Below, piece after piece: positions 5,908 to 61,046 of a stretch of 64,000 bases of DNA (within the stretch, counting starts at the first letter, position 1; each line of letters begins with the position of its first letter). Where the stretch lies: NCBI RefSeq assembly GCF_036323475.1, contig NZ_AP028934.1, positions 1,860,001-1,924,000 on the forward strand, written 5' to 3'. A model generated the notes under the pieces. The model was not told where the DNA came from and searched no databases. It was given only the letters and a program-made list of their open reading frames with translations. The DNA comes from Solobacterium moorei. Lineage in GTDB: Bacteria > Bacillota_I > Bacilli_A > Erysipelotrichales > Erysipelotrichaceae. The translations under genes were made by a program, and so were the position numbers.

Positions 5908-8415
5908 TTAGCCTTCCTTCTCGTCAAATAGACTCAAACGTTCTACATCTTCATGTACTTCGTTATCTGCGTCTTTCGGTATATCAATAATACGACATTC
6001 ATCAATACCGCGGTATAAATCCCATCCATCCTTGAGGACGAGCGGTGATCCAAATCCACTTTCACGTGGTTTGAGTGGCACTTCAGAGGCACGTAATACT
6101 TGTCTTTCAGGATCCTTAAAGATTAGCTCTTCCCCTGCACTAACTGCCTTGGCAAGCGTTACAATGCTTGGATTTGTCTTAAGACGTTTACAGATAAGAT
6201 TGCCCTTCATCGGTCGATTACCAAAGACAATTTCTTCGGTATGGATACGCTTCATCTGTCCGACATTTGTCATATAGAGTACAGCTGGATCTTCTGCATT
6301 CATCACACAACCCCAAGCAAGTTTATCTCCCTTACCAAGGTTCATTGCCTTAACGCCCTTGGACTTTACACCTGTGGCTGGAATATCTTCAATCGCAAAG
6401 CGATAGGAATAGCCATCTTTACTTACCATCAAAATTTGTTGATTCCTATAAGCGATAAAAGCATGAATCATCTCTGCATCCTTACTCAGATTCATCGCAG
6501 TCATAACTTTATTGTTGCGCTCTACTTGCCAGTTATTGACTGGAGTCTTCTTGATTTGACCAGCAGAACTTACTGTCACAATCCATGCATACGTATCAAA
6601 GCTCTTGATGAGAATTGCATTCTTAATCTTATCTTCACCATCGATACGCACAACTTTATTTAAGTGCATTCCAACATCCTTCCATTTACCTTCATCAATT
6701 TGCCAAACTGGAATAGATGCGTAATTACCTTTGGATGTAAACAATAATAATGTATCGAGTGTATCACACTCTGTTGTGCCAATCAGTACATCGCCATCTT
6801 TGATGGATGTCTCTTGGTCACCGACTGCGTTATAGCTACGCATGGATACTCGCTTGAGATAACCATCCCGGCTGACTGTTACCACAACACGTTCATTAGC
6901 AATCATCGCTGTCTTATCATAGTTGATTTCCTCAACTTCAGCTTCAATACGTGTGCGGCGTTCTTGACCATACTCTTTCTTCACATTCCGTAATTCTTTG
7001 ATAATCACGGAATGCAATACATTTTCATTTTCAATGATTGCCTTTGTCTCTTCAATCTGATTGACAAGTTCCGCAAACTCTTCACGTAGTGTAATGATAT
7101 CTGTATTGGATAAACGATATAGACGTAAGGAAACGATTGCTTCAGACTGTGGCTCATCAAAACCAAATTCATTCATCAGGTTACGCTTCGCATCCCCTTT
7201 GTCTTGAGAAGCACGAATAATACGAATCACTTCATCTAAGATTGAAACAGCCTTCATCAAGCCTTCGATGATATGACAACGTGCTTCCATCTTATCTAAC
7301 TCATAGCGTGAACGACGTAATACTACTTCCTTACGGAATGCAATAAACGCATCCAATAATCCAAGTAAGCCAACCTGTACAGGACGCTTATCAATGATTG
7401 CGACATTATTGTAGTTATAGTAGACCTGTAGGTCTGTATTCTTGTAGAAATAATTCAGAATCATATTGGCGTCGATATCCTTACGAACATCCACAACAAT
7501 ACGTAGACCTTCACGGTCAGATTCATCACGTACATCTAAGATACCATCGATATCTTTGGATACACGAATTTCATCCATCTTCTTTACAAGTTGTCCTTTG
7601 ACAACTTCATAAGGAATTTCTGTGATAATGATTTGTTGGCAAGATTTCTCCTCGTGAATTTCACACTTAGAGCGCACAACGATTCTACCCTTACCCGTTG
7701 TAAAGGCATCACGGATACCTGCTTCACCCTGTACGATACCGCCGGTTGGAAAGTCTGGACCAGTTAAAATATCCATCACGTCTGTCAAAGCACTCTCTGG
7801 ATTTTGAATACGATAGATTGTCGCATCCACCACTTCATTTAAGTTATGTGGTGGCATGTTAGTCGCGTAACCTGCCGCAATACCTGTTGCACCATTGACT
7901 AACATTACAGGGAATGGTACTGGAAGTACCGTTGGCTCATGTTCTGTATCGTCAAAGTTTGGTGCCATTTCAACGGTGTTCTTATCCAAGTCTTCTTCCA
8001 TGACTTGCGTAACCTTTGCAAGTCTAGCTTCGGTATAACGCATCGCAGCTGCTGGGTCATCATCAATAGAACCATTATTACCGTGCATATCAATCAGTGG
8101 TAAACGCACCTTCCAGTCTTGGGACATACGTACCATCGCATCGTATACAGAAGTATCACCATGTGGATGATAGTTACCGATAACAAGGCCGACTGTCTTG
8201 GCAGACTTACGGTATGCATGGTCCCATGTATTTCCATCATGGTACATCGCATATAAAATTCTACGCTGTACTGGCTTTAAACCATCACGCGCATCTGGTA
8301 ATGCACGCTCTTGAATAATGTATTTGGCATATCTACCAAAGCCAGCTCCCATAATATCTTCGAGTAGCTCTGGTCTATATTTTGTATTGTCAACGATTGT
8401 CTTCTTCTTAACCAT
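5908..8415 (-). CDS. parC: DNA topoisomerase IV subunit A
   Basis: An 835-residue ParC, the DNA-cleaving subunit of topoisomerase IV, which decatenates daughter chromosomes. The catalytic Tyr lies in AAAMRYTEARL near residue 128. The quinolone-resistance region reads HPHGDTSVYDAM, with Ser and Asp at the positions usually mutated in resistant strains, so it looks wild type. The C-terminal beta-pinwheel follows residue ~500. The start overlaps the parE stop (TAATG), so the subunits are translationally coupled. ParC rather than GyrA is inferred from the parE-parC arrangement and C-terminal length. Confidence 0.92.
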   Translation of the reverse strand: MVKKKTIVDNTKYRPELLEDIMGAGFGRYAKYIIQERALPDARDGLKPVQRRILYAMYHDGNTWDHAYRKSAKTVGLVIGNYHPHGDTSVYDAMVRMSQDWKVRLPLIDMHGNNGSIDDDPAAAMRYTEARLAKVTQVMEEDLDKNTVEMAPNFDDTEHEPTVLPVPFPVMLVNGATGIAAGYATNMPPHNLNEVVDATIYRIQNPESALTDVMDILTGPDFPTGGIVQGEAGIRDAFTTGKGRIVVRSKCEIHEEKSCQQIIITEIPYEVVKGQLVKKMDEIRVSKDIDGILDVRDESDREGLRIVVDVRKDIDANMILNYFYKNTDLQVYYNYNNVAIIDKRPVQVGLLGLLDAFIAFRKEVVLRRSRYELDKMEARCHIIEGLMKAVSILDEVIRIIRASQDKGDAKRNLMNEFGFDEPQSEAIVSLRLYRLSNTDIITLREEFAELVNQIEETKAIIENENVLHSVIIKELRNVKKEYGQERRTRIEAEVEEINYDKTAMIANERVVVTVSRDGYLKRVSMRSYNAVGDQETSIKDGDVLIGTTECDTLDTLLLFTSKGNYASIPVWQIDEGKWKDVGMHLNKVVRIDGEDKIKNAILIKSFDTYAWIVTVSSAGQIKKTPVNNWQVERNNKVMTAMNLSKDAEMIHAFIAYRNQQILMVSKDGYSYRFAIEDIPATGVKSKGVKAMNLGKGDKLAWGCVMNAEDPAVLYMTNVGQMKRIHTEEIVFGNRPMKGNLICKRLKTNPSIVTLAKAVSAGEELIFKDPERQVLRASEVPLKPRESGFGSPLVLKDGWDLYRGIDECRIIDIPKDADNEVHEDVERLSLFDEKEG

Positions 8416-28000: not shown

Positions 28001-28020
28001 CTATGGCGCAGGAACAGGGA
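28001..28020. repeat. attL core
   Basis: The 20-bp core ctatggcgcaggaacaggga is identical to attR at 60304-60323. Its last 17 bases equal the 3' end of tRNA-Ser including CCA, but the rest of the tRNA is absent here. Confidence 0.93.
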
Positions 28021-40895: not shown

Positions 40896-42424
40896 GTCAA
40901 CCAAAAATGAAAATGTCTTAAAAATTAACGAACATTAGCGGAGCTATAATAGTTCTGCTTTTTTGTAAATAATTGATATGAATACTTCCTCCAAGGGTGA
41001 GATATCGGCGGAATATATACTTTCTTTTTCTCAGGAGTTTCAATGATATTATCGAACTCACCCGAATTTTCTTCAAACACTTGTACTTCTTCTAAGATGT
41101 ATAGTGTATCCATCGCATTGACAAAGATCTTTTGATCAAATGATTCAATAACCAATACCTCCATCTTAGGTCTTAGTGGAATTCTATTGTGTTCCTTGTC
41201 ATAGGCCATCCAATACTTGTTTTTGAACTTGATACAGTTGCCTTGATCGACTATTCTCGATGAAATGATTGCCAATGTTTGATTGATTGTTTCTATATCT
41301 GGTTGTACTTCAAATACAGAATTGGTACTATTCAAGTGTAGGGCGAACCTTGCATTGAATTCCTTTAGGTAGGATTTTAGGAACTTATTCGCGTCCGCCA
41401 TACAAGTAATACGAGCACGTCTAAGTTCAACTGGCAAACGTGATTGGAAAGTCTGGTTGAGACGTTCGATGCGTCCTTTGGCTTGTGCGATGCTCGTTGT
41501 TTTGATTTCGACACCAAGGTTATGGCAGGCGTAGGAGAACTGTGTGAAGGTATCCTCGTCGTCGAAGGCCTTGGTTTTCTTTCTGTATTCAAATACGGTT
41601 CGTTTATCCGTATAGAATAGAGCGGGTATGCCATAGTCGACTAGTATCTGATGGAAAACGTTGTAATAGCCACGTAGGGTCTCCTGTATATCAAAGTGGG
41701 CTCCCACAGCAGTACCGGTCGCATCATCTACAGCTAGGTGTAGATGCCATATCTCGCCAGGAATCCATTCGTAGCTTGAAGCGTCCATTTGAATCATCTC
41801 TCCCATATATTTGGATCTAGATCTTCGTGAATGAGGCGTATCATCTTCAATTGATTCGATTTGTTCATTGATTGCGTTTCTGGCCTTTGTAGATGTTGTT
41901 TGGTCTAATCGTTTTGTCAAACGTTCCTTTAATTGTTTCTTGGTTTTTCGATGGGCCTTTGGGGACAAGACATCGTGTTCTGATAACCAGTTTCTAATAG
42001 TGGTGTCACTGATGGAGATGCCGAGGTCCATCTGGACGATTTCACTGAAATGAGTGATGTTGGCATCAAGATACTCGTTAAGATAGAGTTCAATGATTTT
42101 GTTTTTTGTTTCCAGTGAGAATGTGTTTGATGGTAATCGTCCACGATTACCATGTGAAAATGAGGATTTGCCTTCAGACTTATAACGTGTAATCAGGCGG
42201 TTGATAGTACGAATAGAACAATTTAGTTTTAATGCCGCACGGCGTTTATTGCCAGAATGATCAACCAGTTCTTTAATAATGTTGTATTTGTTTTCTTCCA
42301 TAGGGGTTAATATAATCTTTTTCATATTCAATCCAATCTAATGGAATGAATCATAACAATTCCTTTCTATAAATGGGGCATTTTCCCTTTCGGTTCATTA
42401 AGACAATATCAACTTCGATTCAGA
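40896..42424 (-). mobile_element. IS1202-like insertion sequence (ISNCY group), 1529 bp
   Basis: The element is flanked by an exact 27-bp direct repeat, the unusually long duplication known for IS1202-type elements. Both ends contain the imperfect inverted motif TGAxAxTGTCTTAA. One full-length transposase fills the element. It is inserted in the prophage late operon between the MuF-type gene and the scaffold gene, oriented with late transcription. There is no gene loss at the site. Confidence 0.88.
40925..42325 (-). CDS. IS1202-like transposase
   Basis: A 466-residue transposase. An N-terminal helix-turn-helix (HSGNKRRAALKLNCSIRTINRLITRYKSEGKSSFSHGNRGR) is followed by a second HTH (ISISDTTIRNWLSEHDVLSPKAHRKTKKQ) and an rve-type DDE core: QMDASSYEW (first Asp), FYTDKRTVFEY (second Asp), and IAQAKGRIERLNQTFQ (Glu). 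The C-terminal region handles strand transfer. The gene is complete. The start is uncertain, an in-frame TTG lying two codons earlier. Confidence 0.88.
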   Translation of the reverse strand: MKKIILTPMEENKYNIIKELVDHSGNKRRAALKLNCSIRTINRLITRYKSEGKSSFSHGNRGRLPSNTFSLETKNKIIELYLNEYLDANITHFSEIVQMDLGISISDTTIRNWLSEHDVLSPKAHRKTKKQLKERLTKRLDQTTSTKARNAINEQIESIEDDTPHSRRSRSKYMGEMIQMDASSYEWIPGEIWHLHLAVDDATGTAVGAHFDIQETLRGYYNVFHQILVDYGIPALFYTDKRTVFEYRKKTKAFDDEDTFTQFSYACHNLGVEIKTTSIAQAKGRIERLNQTFQSRLPVELRRARITCMADANKFLKSYLKEFNARFALHLNSTNSVFEVQPDIETINQTLAIISSRIVDQGNCIKFKNKYWMAYDKEHNRIPLRPKMEVLVIESFDQKIFVNAMDTLYILEEVQVFEENSGEFDNIIETPEKKKVYIPPISHPWRKYSYQLFTKKQNYYSSANVR

Positions 42425-56234: not shown

Positions 56235-56960
56235 ATGAAAAATATAGAAAATATCCTTAAAGCTTTAATTGTTGATAAATTTAAAAACTTACGACAATTC
56301 TCCATCGAAGCAGATTTGCCGTATACAACTCTTATAGGAATACTCGAACGCGGAATAAATAAAGCAAGTATTCAAAATATCATTAAAATCTGTAAAGCCT
56401 TAAATATAGATACAGATGCCTTGGCGAATGGTGAAATTAAAGAAAGAAATGTAGAAGCACAAAAACTTACGTTTTCTGAATCTAGTATCATAAAAAAATA
56501 CCGTAGCTTAGATGGCTACGGTAAAAAGGCTATTAATAATCTATTAGAGGTTGAATACGAGCGTTGTAACACGGTTATTGAAGAAGATATGCCACTGTAT
56601 ATAACAAAGCCTTATTACACTGTAGGAGCGTCTGCCGGCAATGGCGAATATTTATTCGATGATCTCGATAAAACATCAATCACGCTTCCGGATACACCTT
56701 TAAACAATAAAGCAGATCTTGTCATTGCTGTTAGAGGGCATTCGATGGAGCCGACATATAATGATGGTGATAAATTGTTAGTGAAAAAGCAATCCGAATT
56801 AAATGTTGGTGATATCGGTGTATTCATCATCAATGGCGAGAGTTTCGTCAAGGAACTCGGAAAAGATCGGTTGATATCTCACAACAAGCAATATCAGGAT
56901 ATACATTGCAACGACTATGACAAAATGGTTACGGTCGGAAAGGTAATAGGAGTAATATAA
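56235..56960 (+). CDS. CI/LexA-like phage repressor (HTH plus S24 peptidase)
   Basis: A 241-residue prophage repressor. An N-terminal HTH (FKNLRQFSIEADLPYTTLIGILERGINKASIQNIIKICKALNIDTDALA) binds the operators. The C-terminal S24 domain has an Ala-Gly cleavage site in VGASAGNGEY, catalytic Ser in VRGHSMEPTYNDGD and Lys in ESFVKELG, so it should self-cleave on RecA activation during SOS. GAGGTGA precedes the ATG. It is the first gene of the rightward lysogeny module. Confidence 0.92.
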   Translation: MKNIENILKALIVDKFKNLRQFSIEADLPYTTLIGILERGINKASIQNIIKICKALNIDTDALANGEIKERNVEAQKLTFSESSIIKKYRSLDGYGKKAINNLLEVEYERCNTVIEEDMPLYITKPYYTVGASAGNGEYLFDDLDKTSITLPDTPLNNKADLVIAVRGHSMEPTYNDGDKLLVKKQSELNVGDIGVFIINGESFVKELGKDRLISHNKQYQDIHCNDYDKMVTVGKVIGVI

Positions 56961-57148: not shown

Positions 57149-57496
57149 ATGGATAAAGAGAGTTATTTAAACAATCCTCAGAAAATCATTATGGTTTCCC
57201 CAGAATTATTTGACAGCGATAAATCTGATTTTATTGCTTACGCTTCTGGAAATGGAATGATTCGATCAGGTATATCCGATGGAGATACTTTGATTTTCAA
57301 AAACACTTCCAAATTAAAAGATGGTGAGATTGGAGCGTTTATTATGAAAGGTAAAGAAACCGCCGTAAAGAGATATTTCAAAAGAAACGATACTGTAATT
57401 CTTGAATTTGATGACGGAATACAACCACCAATGATTTTTAACGAAAAAGATGTAGAAATAGTTGGAAAACTAACTTATATAATCAAGAAAATATAA
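57149..57496 (+). CDS. stand-alone S24-like domain lacking the catalytic Ser
   Basis: A 115-residue protein equivalent to CI's C-terminal half, without an HTH. Alignment by eye: SDFIAYASGNGMIRSGISDGDTLIF corresponds to ADLVIAVRGHSMEPTYNDGDKLLV, so the catalytic Ser is replaced by Gly (GNGM). The Lys position is kept (KETAVKRYF). No Ala-Gly cleavage site is present. It is probably catalytically dead and might bind CI or RecA. Function is inference; family membership is clear from the pattern. Confidence 0.78.
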   Translation: MDKESYLNNPQKIIMVSPELFDSDKSDFIAYASGNGMIRSGISDGDTLIFKNTSKLKDGEIGAFIMKGKETAVKRYFKRNDTVILEFDDGIQPPMIFNEKDVEIVGKLTYIIKKI

Positions 57497-57548: not shown

Positions 57549-57929
57549 ATGGAAAATAAATTTAGAGTAATTGAAATTGTGAATAAGAAAAAACTCATAG
57601 TAAATATGGGAACCGAACACGGATTGAAAGAAAATGATTACATTGTAGTATATTCAAACGGCAGGAAAATTGTCGATAATTTAACGCATCAAACATTAGG
57701 CACATGGGATATTATCAAAGCAAAATTGAAAGTAATACAATCGTTTCAATTATTTTCAATTTGTTCTGAAGTTATCACTTTCAAAAATGCCTTTTCCGAT
57801 ATTTTGCATCCATCTGTCGAATACGAAGACTTTACTGATTTAGATATTGACGAAGCTGAAGCCAGCAACCAAGATGTTGCCGAAGAAAGAATAATTCATG
57901 TCGGCGACTTAATTAAAAAGATTGATTAA
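57549..57929 (+). CDS. hypothetical protein with a FlgT_C-like beta domain
   Basis: A 126-residue protein. FRVIEIVNKKKLIVNMGTEHGLKENDYIVVYSNGRKIVDNLTHQTLGTWDIIKAKLKVIQSFQLFSICSE has the pattern of a small beta domain (VNxG...GLKxxD) seen in FlgT C-terminal-like proteins of mobile elements. The C-terminus is acidic. AAAGGAG precedes the ATG. It sits between the S24-like gene and the abiF leader. Function unknown. Confidence 0.65.
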   Translation: MENKFRVIEIVNKKKLIVNMGTEHGLKENDYIVVYSNGRKIVDNLTHQTLGTWDIIKAKLKVIQSFQLFSICSEVITFKNAFSDILHPSVEYEDFTDLDIDEAEASNQDVAEERIIHVGDLIKKID

Positions 57930-57959
57930 ATTTAACACACTTTCAAAAAAATATGCTAT

Positions 57960-58030
57960 TATATTGAAGATAACTCTGTCCTGCATTATAGGACCAGAAA
58001 AAGGCATCTTCAATATTGAGGATGCCTTTT
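57960..58030 (+). ncRNA. structured RNA upstream of abiF, candidate abiF RNA
   Basis: A compact element ends 16 nt before the abiF ATG. ATTGAAGAT (57963-57971) pairs with ATCTTCAAT (58006-58014); GTCCT and AGGAC (57978-57994) form an inner hairpin; AAAAGGCATCTTCAAT and ATTGAGGATGCCTTTT (57999-58030) form a 16-bp terminator-like hairpin with one wobble, exclusive of the first pairing. TATTAT nearby could be a -10. A conserved RNA upstream of abiF genes is established; membership here needs a covariance search. Confidence 0.72.
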
Positions 58031-58046
58031 GCATTTAGGAGAGAAA

Positions 58047-59075
58047 ATGAATGAACACAGAAAACCACATTTATCATTTCACGAACAATTAGTTCATTTA
58101 AAAGAACATCACAAATTGGATTTAAACCCCAATTCATACATAGCTGAAGAAATTTTAAAATCTATGTCATATTATGATTTGATTAATGGGTACAAAGAAC
58201 ATTTTATGGTAAATGACATATATGGTGACAGTAACATCATAGATTTATTTGATTATTCATTTACCGACAGAACATTTCAAGGAATAATTTTTAAATATAG
58301 CTTACTTGTGGAAACTCGTTTTCGGTATGTCATGTCTAATGTTGTTGCAGAAGATTTTGGCGAACGCGAATCGGACTATCTTAATTTAAGTAAATATAAA
58401 ATTCCACGAAAGCCTAAAAGACGAGATAAGCTTAATGAAACATTATCCGACATCAGAGGTATTTATAAGCCAAGAACCCCTAATAAAATAATACCAAATC
58501 CAACAAAACATTATATTTTAAAGTATGGATATATCCCACCATGGATTTTATTTAAAAATGTAACATTCAGCAGCTTAACTGACTTATATTCATTTATGCC
58601 TATTTCAACAAAAGTAAAAATTGCAAATGAAATGGTCCCAATAGCCACTATGGATGACTTCAAAAAAACTGAATTTCTAAAAAATGGATTAACATTAATC
58701 AGGAAATACAGAAATAATATCGCTCACGACTTGAAATTTATCAATGTTTGTAATTCTAAATATGGATTAAATAAAGAAATCTTTAATTATCCAGGATTAT
58801 CTGAATTAGTAACCAAGAGCGAGCTAAAGGATGGTAAATGCAAAAATGATCACTTTGCGCTAATTGTATCAATTACGGTATTATTAAATAATATTTTTTT
58901 GCAAAATAAGTTGAAGAATGAACTACTTGATTTTTCTCATAATATTAATATTTTGGGGCTAAAAAACTCTGCCGCAAAATATCTCATTAATATGAAAATA
59001 CCAAACGACTTCCCATCTAGAATACAAAATTATATTAGTATTGCTTATAAAGATATATTTATACAACACAATTAA
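58047..59075 (+). CDS. abiF: AbiF/AbiD-like abortive infection protein (Abi_2, HEPN)
   Basis: A 342-residue Abi_2-family protein. The N-terminal HLSFHEQLVHLKEHHKLDL ... ILKSMSYYDLINGYKEHFM is the family start. The C-terminal HEPN ribonuclease motif is RKYRNNIAHD near residue 230 (R-x4-H), and the GYIPPWILFKNVTFSSLTDLYSFM segment is characteristic. AbiF/AbiD proteins stop phage growth, and AbiF has been described as a toxin held by an RNA antitoxin and related to the ancestor of Cas13. AGGAGAG precedes the ATG at 58047; an upstream in-frame TTG lies in the terminator. Confidence 0.85.
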   Translation: MNEHRKPHLSFHEQLVHLKEHHKLDLNPNSYIAEEILKSMSYYDLINGYKEHFMVNDIYGDSNIIDLFDYSFTDRTFQGIIFKYSLLVETRFRYVMSNVVAEDFGERESDYLNLSKYKIPRKPKRRDKLNETLSDIRGIYKPRTPNKIIPNPTKHYILKYGYIPPWILFKNVTFSSLTDLYSFMPISTKVKIANEMVPIATMDDFKKTEFLKNGLTLIRKYRNNIAHDLKFINVCNSKYGLNKEIFNYPGLSELVTKSELKDGKCKNDHFALIVSITVLLNNIFLQNKLKNELLDFSHNINILGLKNSAAKYLINMKIPNDFPSRIQNYISIAYKDIFIQHN

Positions 59076-59207: not shown

Positions 59208-60251
59208 ATGTCCGTCGCAAAAGATAAACCTACTGGGCTTTGGTATTACGTTTTTAAAGTAAAAAATCCAATTACGGGAAAAATATCATGGAAAAAGAAA
59301 CGTGGCTTTGAAACGAAAAGAGATGCCTTAAATGCTGAAGCAGATGCGCAACGACTAACACAAGATACATCCGGTGAGTTAACGTTCAAAGACATTTCAC
59401 ACCAGTGGGAAGACTACAGACAATCGAGCAAGGCAAGCCGTAGACAGCACACAGAGCACTTCACAAAGCGATTCTCAAAGTTTTATGAACTTCCTATCAA
59501 GAAAATCAAAAGAGCGACTCTAGCAGACTGGTATAGCGCCCTATCGAAAGATACTGCATACTCTACACAAACCAAGAACGTAACAATCTCTTACGTAAAG
59601 TCTGTATATAAATATGCAAACGAAGTCTATGACGTTCCGAACATATCTACCCTTTTAAGAAGATTAAAGAAAACGGATTCTGAGATTATTAACGAAGAAA
59701 TGAGCGTTTGGACTGTAGATGAATTTAATCAGTTTATTTCAAGCGTTGATACTGAACTATATAAGCTGTTTTTCTCATTCTTGTTTTGGACCGGATGTCG
59801 CCGCGGTGAAGCCATAGCTCTACAGAAGAGTGATATCGAAGAGGATTGGATCACAATTAAATACAGTCAGAGAAGTGCATTAGAAGGTCTAAAACCAACA
59901 AAGACTAAGAACACAAGAAAAATACAGATGGACAGCAAACTGTTCTCATCGTTACACCCTTTACTAGATGCTCCAGGTAACTACCTTTTCGGTGGAGAAC
60001 ACCCACTATCTCCGACAGAAATATCTCGCCAATTTAACAAAGGAATAGCTAAAAGTGGTGTAAGTAAGATAAGAATTCATGACTTGAGACACAGTCACGC
60101 TACCTTTTTAATCAATAGCGGTGTGAATATTGTTGCTGTTTCTAAAAGATTAGGACATACCAATATTGAGCAAACCCTGAAAACTTATACACACCTACTA
60201 GATCAGACAAACGAGGCACTAATAAATACGATAAATATTGCAAAAAGTTGA
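59208..60251 (+). CDS. int: prophage tyrosine integrase
   Basis: A 347-residue integrase. It has an N-terminal arm-binding domain (GLWYYVFKVKNPITGKISWKKKRGFETKRDA), a core-binding domain (~60-160), and a catalytic domain with Arg in WTGCRRGEAIAL, Lys in KPTKTKNTRK, His-x-x-Arg in HDLRHSHATF, His in RLGHTNIEQT and Tyr in LKTYTHL. AAAGGAG precedes the ATG at 59208. It lies 52 bp from attR with arm-type GTTGACCA repeats after its stop, the normal attP side. Confidence 0.94.
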   Translation: MSVAKDKPTGLWYYVFKVKNPITGKISWKKKRGFETKRDALNAEADAQRLTQDTSGELTFKDISHQWEDYRQSSKASRRQHTEHFTKRFSKFYELPIKKIKRATLADWYSALSKDTAYSTQTKNVTISYVKSVYKYANEVYDVPNISTLLRRLKKTDSEIINEEMSVWTVDEFNQFISSVDTELYKLFFSFLFWTGCRRGEAIALQKSDIEEDWITIKYSQRSALEGLKPTKTKNTRKIQMDSKLFSSLHPLLDAPGNYLFGGEHPLSPTEISRQFNKGIAKSGVSKIRIHDLRHSHATFLINSGVNIVAVSKRLGHTNIEQTLKTYTHLLDQTNEALINTINIAKS

Positions 60252-60303: not shown

Positions 60304-60323
60304 CTATGGCGCAGGAACAGGGA
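60304..60323. repeat. attR core
   Basis: The 20-bp core ctatggcgcaggaacaggga is identical to attL. It covers the 3' end of tRNA-Ser, including CCA, so the prophage supplies the restored tRNA end. Confidence 0.93.
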
Positions 60324-60470: not shown

Positions 60471-60998
60471 TCTAACAGTAAACAAAAATGGCCTATGGAA
60501 ATGCGATGAAATCAAGTATTTCTCTTATATGTTCCGTTGAATAATATCAAATGTCGTAAAATTCTATCCATCTTTGGCCACAGTTCTACTGCACCTTTTA
60601 CTCTAAACAGATATACAAACCAATTTAAATAGGATTGTAGATTAGTCATTCTCATCCCAATGAAGCGATAGATATACCTTTTTAGCCATGAACACATATT
60701 GTTTATCAATGCCATGTTCTCTAGATATTCTTTGTCATGTGTATTGGCTTTATAGAATTCTTCTTTCAAGTCTAATTCTTTTATCAGCTTGTCATGTGCT
60801 CTTTCGCCATCATGTACTAGTGTTGATCCGGAAGCGATATGATTCTTTAGCGCTTCAAAGATACGTGAAGCAGATGGCTTTCCATGACCACAAATAGCAA
60901 CGTATGTATTTTTGTGACAATCGATTGCCACAACGATACAGAGTTGGCTCTTAGATAATCCTCTCTTCTTGTCTAGGCCATTTTTGTTTACTGTTAGA
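60471..60998 (-). mobile_element. internally deleted IS1595-type element, 528 bp
   Basis: Perfect 25-bp inverted repeats, beginning TCTAACAGTAAACAAAAATG, lie at 60471-60495 and 60974-60998. An 8-bp direct repeat AATAATTT flanks them (60463-60470 and 60999-61006). Inside is only the C-terminal half of an ISXO2-type transposase. Intact ends with a deleted interior and preserved target duplication make it a non-autonomous, MITE-like element. Its ends differ from those of the element at 11949. Confidence 0.88.
60512..60973 (-). pseudogene. C-terminal half of an IS1595-family transposase
   Basis: The remnant begins around DKKRGLSKSQLCIVVAIDCHKNTYVAICGHGKPSASRIF, the middle of the ISXO2-like catalytic domain, and continues to the normal C-terminus (NLQSYLNWFVYLFRVKGAVELW). 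The zinc ribbon, HTH and first catalytic Asp are missing. The open frame continues through the inverted repeat into the neighbouring promoter region, but that part is not transposase. It cannot be an active transposase. Confidence 0.85.
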
Positions 60999-61046
60999 AA
61001 TAATTTAACTTTCCACGTAAAATAAACATACTGGAGGTTATACAAA

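Follow-up and report, generated by a model that had tools for sequence, protein, structure and literature searches.

In a prophage of Solobacterium moorei, the transcribed -10/+1 region of a predicted promoter just upstream of abiF is complementary to the 5' arm of the terminator-like hairpin that separates this promoter from the gene, and the same complementarity, in differing sequences, is found at related loci. The locus lies in a stretch of 64,000 nucleotides (contig NZ_AP028934.1, positions 1,860,001 to 1,924,000), hereafter called the window, in which all positions are given unless stated otherwise. The explanation that fits these data best, to which we assign a probability of roughly 0.55, is an AbiF toxin module that comprises an antitoxin RNA, a partner protein with a FlgT-C-like fold and an antiterminator derived from the promoter and present in read-through RNA.

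The gene abiF (58047-59075, + strand) encodes a 342-residue protein that the sequence-only reading had described as an Abi_2/AbiF protein with the HEPN motif RNNIAH (residues 222-227; 58710-58727, + strand). Pfam (PF07751, Abi_2; 94 bits at a cut-off of 25.6), phrog_2158 ('abortive infection resistance protein', 2.4e-41), PADLOC, which assigns the protein to AbiD (1.6e-26), and an alignment of 56 sequences bear out this description, and the identity of the protein is firm. Within the 56 aligned sequences R222, N223 and H227 are invariant and A226 is at least 90% conserved. Relatives of more than about 40% identity were not found. Translation more likely begins at ATG 58047, behind the ribosome binding site AGGAG (58037-58041, + strand), than at TTG 58029, which was set aside as a start.

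A structural model predicted from the 56-sequence alignment (pLDDT 94.2, pTM 0.91) had a single convincing match in the PDB, PbAbiF with its ncRNA (8VZ6; Foldseek 2.9e-5, TM-score 0.74 by target, 18% identity in the structural alignment). PbAbiF was also found by a profile search with the window protein, over nearly its full length (1.6e-29). As AbiF is named as the proposed Cas13 ancestor in the part of PMC12737573 covered here, this kinship by profile and fold relates the window protein to that proposed ancestor, and the suggested link to Cas13 ancestry holds to this extent. With one conserved RxxxxH in 342 residues and the AbiF fold, the protein is no Cas13, which would have two HEPN domains and a CRISPR guide. 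AbiF of the window would be expected to be toxic, to bind its RNA and to act in phage defence, and superinfection exclusion is a plausible role for the prophage-borne protein.

Gene annotation places abiF in the lysogeny module just before a phage integrase of the tyrosine recombinase type (59208-60251, + strand), as had been proposed, and an Abi gene occupies this position also in phages MissC, Javan374, phi575 and others. Upstream of abiF lie a CI-like repressor with an S24 peptidase domain (56235-56960, + strand), the proposed source of read-through transcription, an S24-only UmuD-like protein (57149-57496, + strand) and, 52 nt further on, the partner gene (57549-57929, + strand). The UmuD-like protein is a stand-alone domain without an HTH, situated between repressor and partner. 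No convincing forward terminator was found between the repressor and UmuD-like genes and the partner. The prophage appears to lie between two copies of a 20-bp att-like direct repeat (28001-28020 and 60304-60323), the right copy being at a tRNA 3' end, and it encodes terminase, portal, protease, capsid, tape-measure, tail and lysin proteins. An att-like repeat, terminase, portal, capsid, tape-measure and lysin genes agree with its earlier description as intact-looking, but a transposase ORF (40925-42331) separates the head protease gene from that for the major head protein (capsid), so that the intactness of the prophage is unproven. Just beyond the right end, a minus-strand ORF (60512-61045) was recognized as transposase-like from its translation only.

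The leader between the partner gene and abiF (57930-58046) has a predicted folding energy of -32.9 kcal/mol, compared to -17.7 ± 3.3 for shuffled sequences (z = -4.6, 0 of 200 shuffles). Its predicted internal promoter (57932-57962, + strand) consists of TTAACA (57932-57937), which follows the partner's stop codon by 2 nt, a 19-nt spacer and the extended -10 TGC-TATTAT (57954-57962), with a start near 57969. With this -35 and spacer the prediction is weak, and it is absent from a stricter promoter scan. Around the predicted start lies segment P (ATATTGAAGAT; 57961-57971, + strand, -8 to +2), followed by the 9-bp core hairpin of the putative antitoxin RNA, with a bulged C (57975-57998, + strand), and by a terminator-like hairpin of 14 bp with a 4-nt loop and a U-run of only 4 (57999-58030, + strand). 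Of the layout expected for a short RNA, hairpin, terminator and extended -10 are present, the promoter being weak. Segment P pairs over 11 bp with 58006-58016 (ATCTTCAATAT), a stretch inside the terminator-like hairpin. This outer pairing and the terminator claim the same 5' arm and rival each other. Inner hairpin, outer pairing and competition with the terminator-like hairpin had all been recognized in the sequence-only reading, and folding recovers each of them; the lengths differ, as the outer pairing measures 11 bp and not 9 bp, and the terminator stem 14 bp and not 16 bp.

The earlier assignment of this leader to the abiF-associated RNA arrangement stands as regards a structured leader in an RCd22/AbiF_Cd-like layout on a prophage, but not as regards the RNA family. 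Rfam RF03085 (abiF RNA) matched neither in the window nor in the whole 2.6-Mb genome, permissive thresholds included. This is one of the outcomes that the sequence-only reading had named as speaking against its proposal. In the positive control, RF03085 was detected upstream of abiF in phage phiC2 at 37.6 bits, just above the cut-off. Weaker matches, well short of the gathering score, directly precede Abi_2 genes in two related genomes, G169 (L026/L032) and G172 (L029/L035), so that the Rfam cut-off misses likely real cases. From these three detections it follows that the search works and that the window RNA is different; it is a positional analogue of the abiF RNA, and membership of RF03085 was rejected. 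A second model, R1, describes a GAAAUGG-hairpin-GCGA element upstream of phage Abi_2 genes and was built from 21 loci other than the window's. The core hairpin covaries in these 21 loci, with 95% of cells paired, both-side changes in 5 of 6 pairs and controls well below. The held-out locus L101 matches R1 at 2.6e-5. The window leader, which has its core hairpin at the same position, gave no match to R1 even with filters off, and its membership of this family was not supported. The 50-b transcript of AbiD1 on pIL105 (L330, ~7290-7350) resembles by eye the RF03085-type RNA of L026 and L029 (CACGCCTCTG ... ATGCGCA); Rfam did not call RF03085 for this short RNA.

For comparison, Abi_2 loci were drawn from the host family, annotated phages and plasmids, phiC2 and IMG/VR, giving a set of 157 representatives at 70% protein identity. 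A layout in which a sigma-70-like promoter is followed by short hairpin RNA, terminator, RBS and abi recurs in this set, and 87 of the 157 loci pass automatic thresholds for both promoter and terminator. In L009 and L020 the short RNA and its terminator stand twice in tandem before abi, as two similar copies, and the AbiF homologue of L024 (Limosilactobacillus equigenerosi) is divided between two overlapping frames and may be broken. The window's own genome encodes a second AbiF, whose leader has its own promoter, hairpin and terminator and strong promoter-terminator complementarity. It lies about 4 kb from a ToxN gene (G000:C1:598192-598797, L001; G000:C1:594015-594488, L319), and the two perhaps form a small island of systems with RNA antitoxins.

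Across the 87 loci, the promoter segment from about -20 to +3 complements the loop-proximal 5' arm of its own terminator. Scoring of the region -25 to +5 against the 5' arm and loop of the own terminator gave a mean of 17.6, compared to 11.3 for mismatched loci (z = 23), where the null pairs each promoter with the terminators of mismatched loci and the z-scores treat loci as independent. Control windows gave z = 3.3 (-60 to -30) and z = -1.3 (-95 to -65), and a region inside the RNA showed no complementarity to the terminator (z = -1.4). With the -10 masked z amounted to 13.8, with the spacer alone to 9.2 and with -6 to +5 alone to 9.0. An origin of the complementarity in AT-rich -10 sequences was rejected on the grounds of the mismatched-pair nulls and the -10 masking. 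When the whole upstream region was searched, a score of 18 was reached by 54 of the 87 loci as against 10% of mismatched pairs; about 38% of the loci stay below this strong score. The strong P segments are mostly centred between -30 and 0, none starts after +2, and the 54 loci carry 54 different P sequences. P covers the loop-proximal half of the terminator 5' arm, i.e., the half in which the hairpin nucleates. The window pair, with a score of 24, ranks first of 87, and the window's nearer relatives (L119, L120, L122 and L257) likewise show complementarity.

The promoter-terminator complementarity is real and conserved. Because the sequences vary between loci while the complementarity stays constant, the comparison argues for selection acting on the pairing of P with the terminator arm. 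The outer pairing, which had been placed within the RNA element, is likewise real and above chance, but it lies mostly outside the RNA that would start at the predicted promoter. For the family, an outer pairing in the mature antitoxin RNA was rejected, since P is mostly upstream of the start and no strong P begins after +2. In phiC2, if transcription is taken to start 168 nt before the ATG, as PMC12373285 gives for the homologous RCd22, P falls exactly on -10 to -1; this case is only suggestive, since 3 of the 87 foreign terminators do equally well with the same segment. Promoter-terminator pairing was not seen at loci with RF03085-type RNA. Type III toxin-antitoxin systems of the ToxIN kind also combine an RNA antitoxin, a terminator and a toxin in one operon, but differ from AbiF in their tandem-repeat RNA and unrelated RNase fold. 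Unlike the Abi_2 loci, they gave a complementarity of z = 0.55, a weak control in which 7 of 23 loci passed the filters and could be tested.

With most of P preceding the start site, a transcript begun at the internal promoter would lack the greater part of it, and only read-through RNA would contain P whole. The 36 loci in which a co-directional gene stops no more than 30 nt from the -35 had a mean complementarity of 20.7, above the 15.0 of the 38 loci whose upstream neighbour is opposite or at a distance of 80 nt or more (p = 5e-6). Folding was restricted to the RNA that has emerged when the polymerase is at the U-run, assuming a 12-nt emergence lag. At the strong loci, read-through RNA is predicted to form 11.1 pairs between P and the terminator arm and 1.1 terminator pairs, compared to 0.6 and 5.2 when the RNA begins at the own start and to 2.8 and 4.3 when P is replaced by a foreign one. 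For the window the corresponding values are 10.8 and 0.0 in read-through RNA and 0.4 and 4.3 in RNA from the own start. The full-length window leader at equilibrium favours the terminator over the outer pairing, so the proposed switch must be kinetic. Classical attenuation is a kinetic switch of this type.

These data point toward the following scenario. The HEPN RNase AbiF would be held in check by a cis-encoded RNA, most likely its antitoxin, which the internal promoter at the partner's stop codon would produce as a short hairpin RNA ending at the terminator before abiF; normally, this promoter would supply the antitoxin RNA only. Transcripts from the operon of repressor, UmuD-like protein and partner would cross the promoter and carry its -10/+1 sequence as RNA. 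Once emerged, P in such a read-through RNA could pair with the loop-proximal 5' arm of the terminator and block its nucleation, allowing the polymerase to enter abiF, so that the promoter DNA would double as an antiterminator in read-through RNA only. AbiF synthesis would then track upstream (lysogeny) transcription, with the antitoxin RNA being supplied separately. Whenever antitoxin supply lags, e.g., when a phage takes over the cell or the prophage is lost, unbound AbiF would cleave RNA and arrest growth. Antitermination is the best fit to the position of P and to the link with upstream genes, and we hold it at about even odds.

The partner gene encodes 126 residues with a FlgT-C-like fold, and its family is found directly upstream of many phage Abi_2 loci, in total of 38 of the 157 representatives. 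The family proteins are mostly about 120-145 residues long, and their genes stop at or near the -35. A match to PF16538 (FlgT C-terminal) stayed below the cut-off (E = 0.089), FlgT (3w1e) was among the best PDB matches and a profile search links the partner to TsaP. In contrast to FlgT and TsaP, to which this weak profile and fold match relates it, the partner is a lone protein of about 125-140 residues in phage lysogeny modules, outside any flagellar or pilus context. Among annotated phages and plasmids, tblastn with four queries of the family found phi575, Javan374, Javan321, iA2 (two accessions, one phage) and the plasmid NZ_CP094948, with an Abi_2 match directly downstream in all five. Three confident matches in 273 host-family genomes all adjoin Abi_2, and one weak match does not. 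Two scans with single proteins, of limited sensitivity, returned one locus each, 99-100% identical to the query. The records of phages and plasmids, in which 5 of 5 partner genes are accompanied by Abi_2, do not support the view of the partner as a general lysogeny gene; distant relatives without Abi, in G218 and G595, are exceptions.

Loci with the partner show higher complementarity than those without (21.5 versus 15.7, p = 2e-6), but as complementarity persists in partner-less loci (z = 13.2), the two are linked yet separable. In part, this link is shared ancestry. The association suggests that the partner gene has a role in the AbiF module. Whether partner, antitoxin RNA and HEPN toxin make up one three-part module, in which the transcribed -10/+1 of the antitoxin promoter serves as the antiterminator that turns the toxin on, is a tentative proposal that we place just short of an even chance.

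Several other explanations have to be weighed against promoter-derived antitermination. The locus might be an ordinary RCd22-like unit of AbiF and RNA antitoxin, with one promoter, a leaky terminator and chance read-through, the complementarity being without regulatory role. RCd22/AbiF_Cd and AbiD1 behave so as far as the published parts covered describe them (PMC12373285, PMC2661086), strong complementarity is missing in about 38% of relatives, and the terminator wins at equilibrium. On this account, however, one would not expect 54 loci to keep complementarity with differing sequences, nor complementarity to follow the adjacency of an upstream gene, with the window among the best scorers, and we consider it unlikely. 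If, on the other hand, the window promoter were inactive, the hairpins would constitute an attenuated leader of abiF within the lysogeny operon, P would always be part of the RNA and a separate antitoxin RNA would not exist. Although the weak -35, the 19-nt spacer and the negative result of the stricter scan would agree with this, the extended -10 (TGC-TATTAT) occupies a conserved place, near-consensus promoters of relatives lie exactly there and the mapped start sites of RCd22 and AbiD1 correspond to it, which leaves an inactive promoter distinctly unlikely.

The complementarity might also act at the level of DNA, either as an inverted repeat to which a regulator binds or as a mutational by-product, e.g., of template switching between promoter and terminator. 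P, the 5' arm and the 3' arm are indeed three related copies, and P lies in part ahead of the start site. Yet complementarity is kept while sequences differ across prophages with different repressors and chromosomal loci, and P fits the nucleation half of the hairpin and prefers loci with an adjacent upstream gene, so that this reading is improbable. Finally, the terminator arm might guide an AbiF-RNA complex to the bubble of its own promoter or to read-through RNA, in a Cas13-like autoregulation. This idea draws on the complementarity of the RNA 3' part to the coding strand of the promoter and on the standing of AbiF as proposed Cas13 ancestor (PMC12737573, in the part covered). However, the arm is sequestered in a stable hairpin, P in many cases takes in part of the spacer, which is duplex and precedes the melted region, and AbiF is described as a non-guided toxin. 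AbiF is not known to have guide activity, and we give this possibility a very slim chance.

The combination of RNA, terminator and AbiF is already known, since RCd22 and AbiD1 are precedents. As described in the covered part of PMC12373285, RCd22 neutralizes AbiF_Cd by direct binding, in cis and in trans, its terminator restricts abiF transcription, and the layout of promoter, RNA, terminator, RBS and abiF was shown experimentally. Like the window, RCd22/AbiF_Cd of C. difficile (phi027, phiC2) has a prophage-borne AbiF of the Abi_2 family, whose HEPN motif has conserved R and H, preceded in the same order by promoter, RNA (~100 nt for RCd22), Rho-independent terminator and RBS; these form one transcription unit in RCd22, and in the window the promoter is predicted. 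RCd22 differs in having two abiF motifs and in its place in the lysis module after the holin, whereas the window has no RF03085 motif, lies in the lysogeny module and has the partner upstream. The same part of PMC12373285 does not describe promoter-terminator complementarity, and its authors raise a riboswitch-like trigger as speculation only.

In L. lactis, the 50-b RNA of AbiD1 ends at a terminator ahead of the gene, whose mRNA was proposed to arise by read-through (PMC2661086). A short terminated transcript before abi and toxin mRNA made by read-through, both of them predicted for the window, are the points of likeness. AbiD1 is in contrast plasmid-borne (pIL105), has two genes downstream and is under translational control by phage Orf1, its read-through not being raised by phage infection (PMC2661086). 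PbAbiF has an RF03085-type RNA, unlike the window, and the part of PMC12737573 covered describes no partner protein for it. A terminator complement embedded in the promoter and the partner gene are not described in the open-access literature to the extent covered here.

The findings bear on how the ratio of AbiF toxin to antitoxin is set, for which the conserved, covarying pairing of promoter and terminator is a concrete candidate switch, and they bring in a new candidate component of AbiF modules, the conserved partner gene. If the proposed antitermination is true, the cell would read the origin of a transcript, and hence the activity of the lysogeny operon, directly in RNA. One stretch of DNA would then be a promoter as DNA and an antiterminator as RNA, making up a compact sensor of incoming transcription, and such a promoter-antiterminator device could be sought in other attenuated operons.
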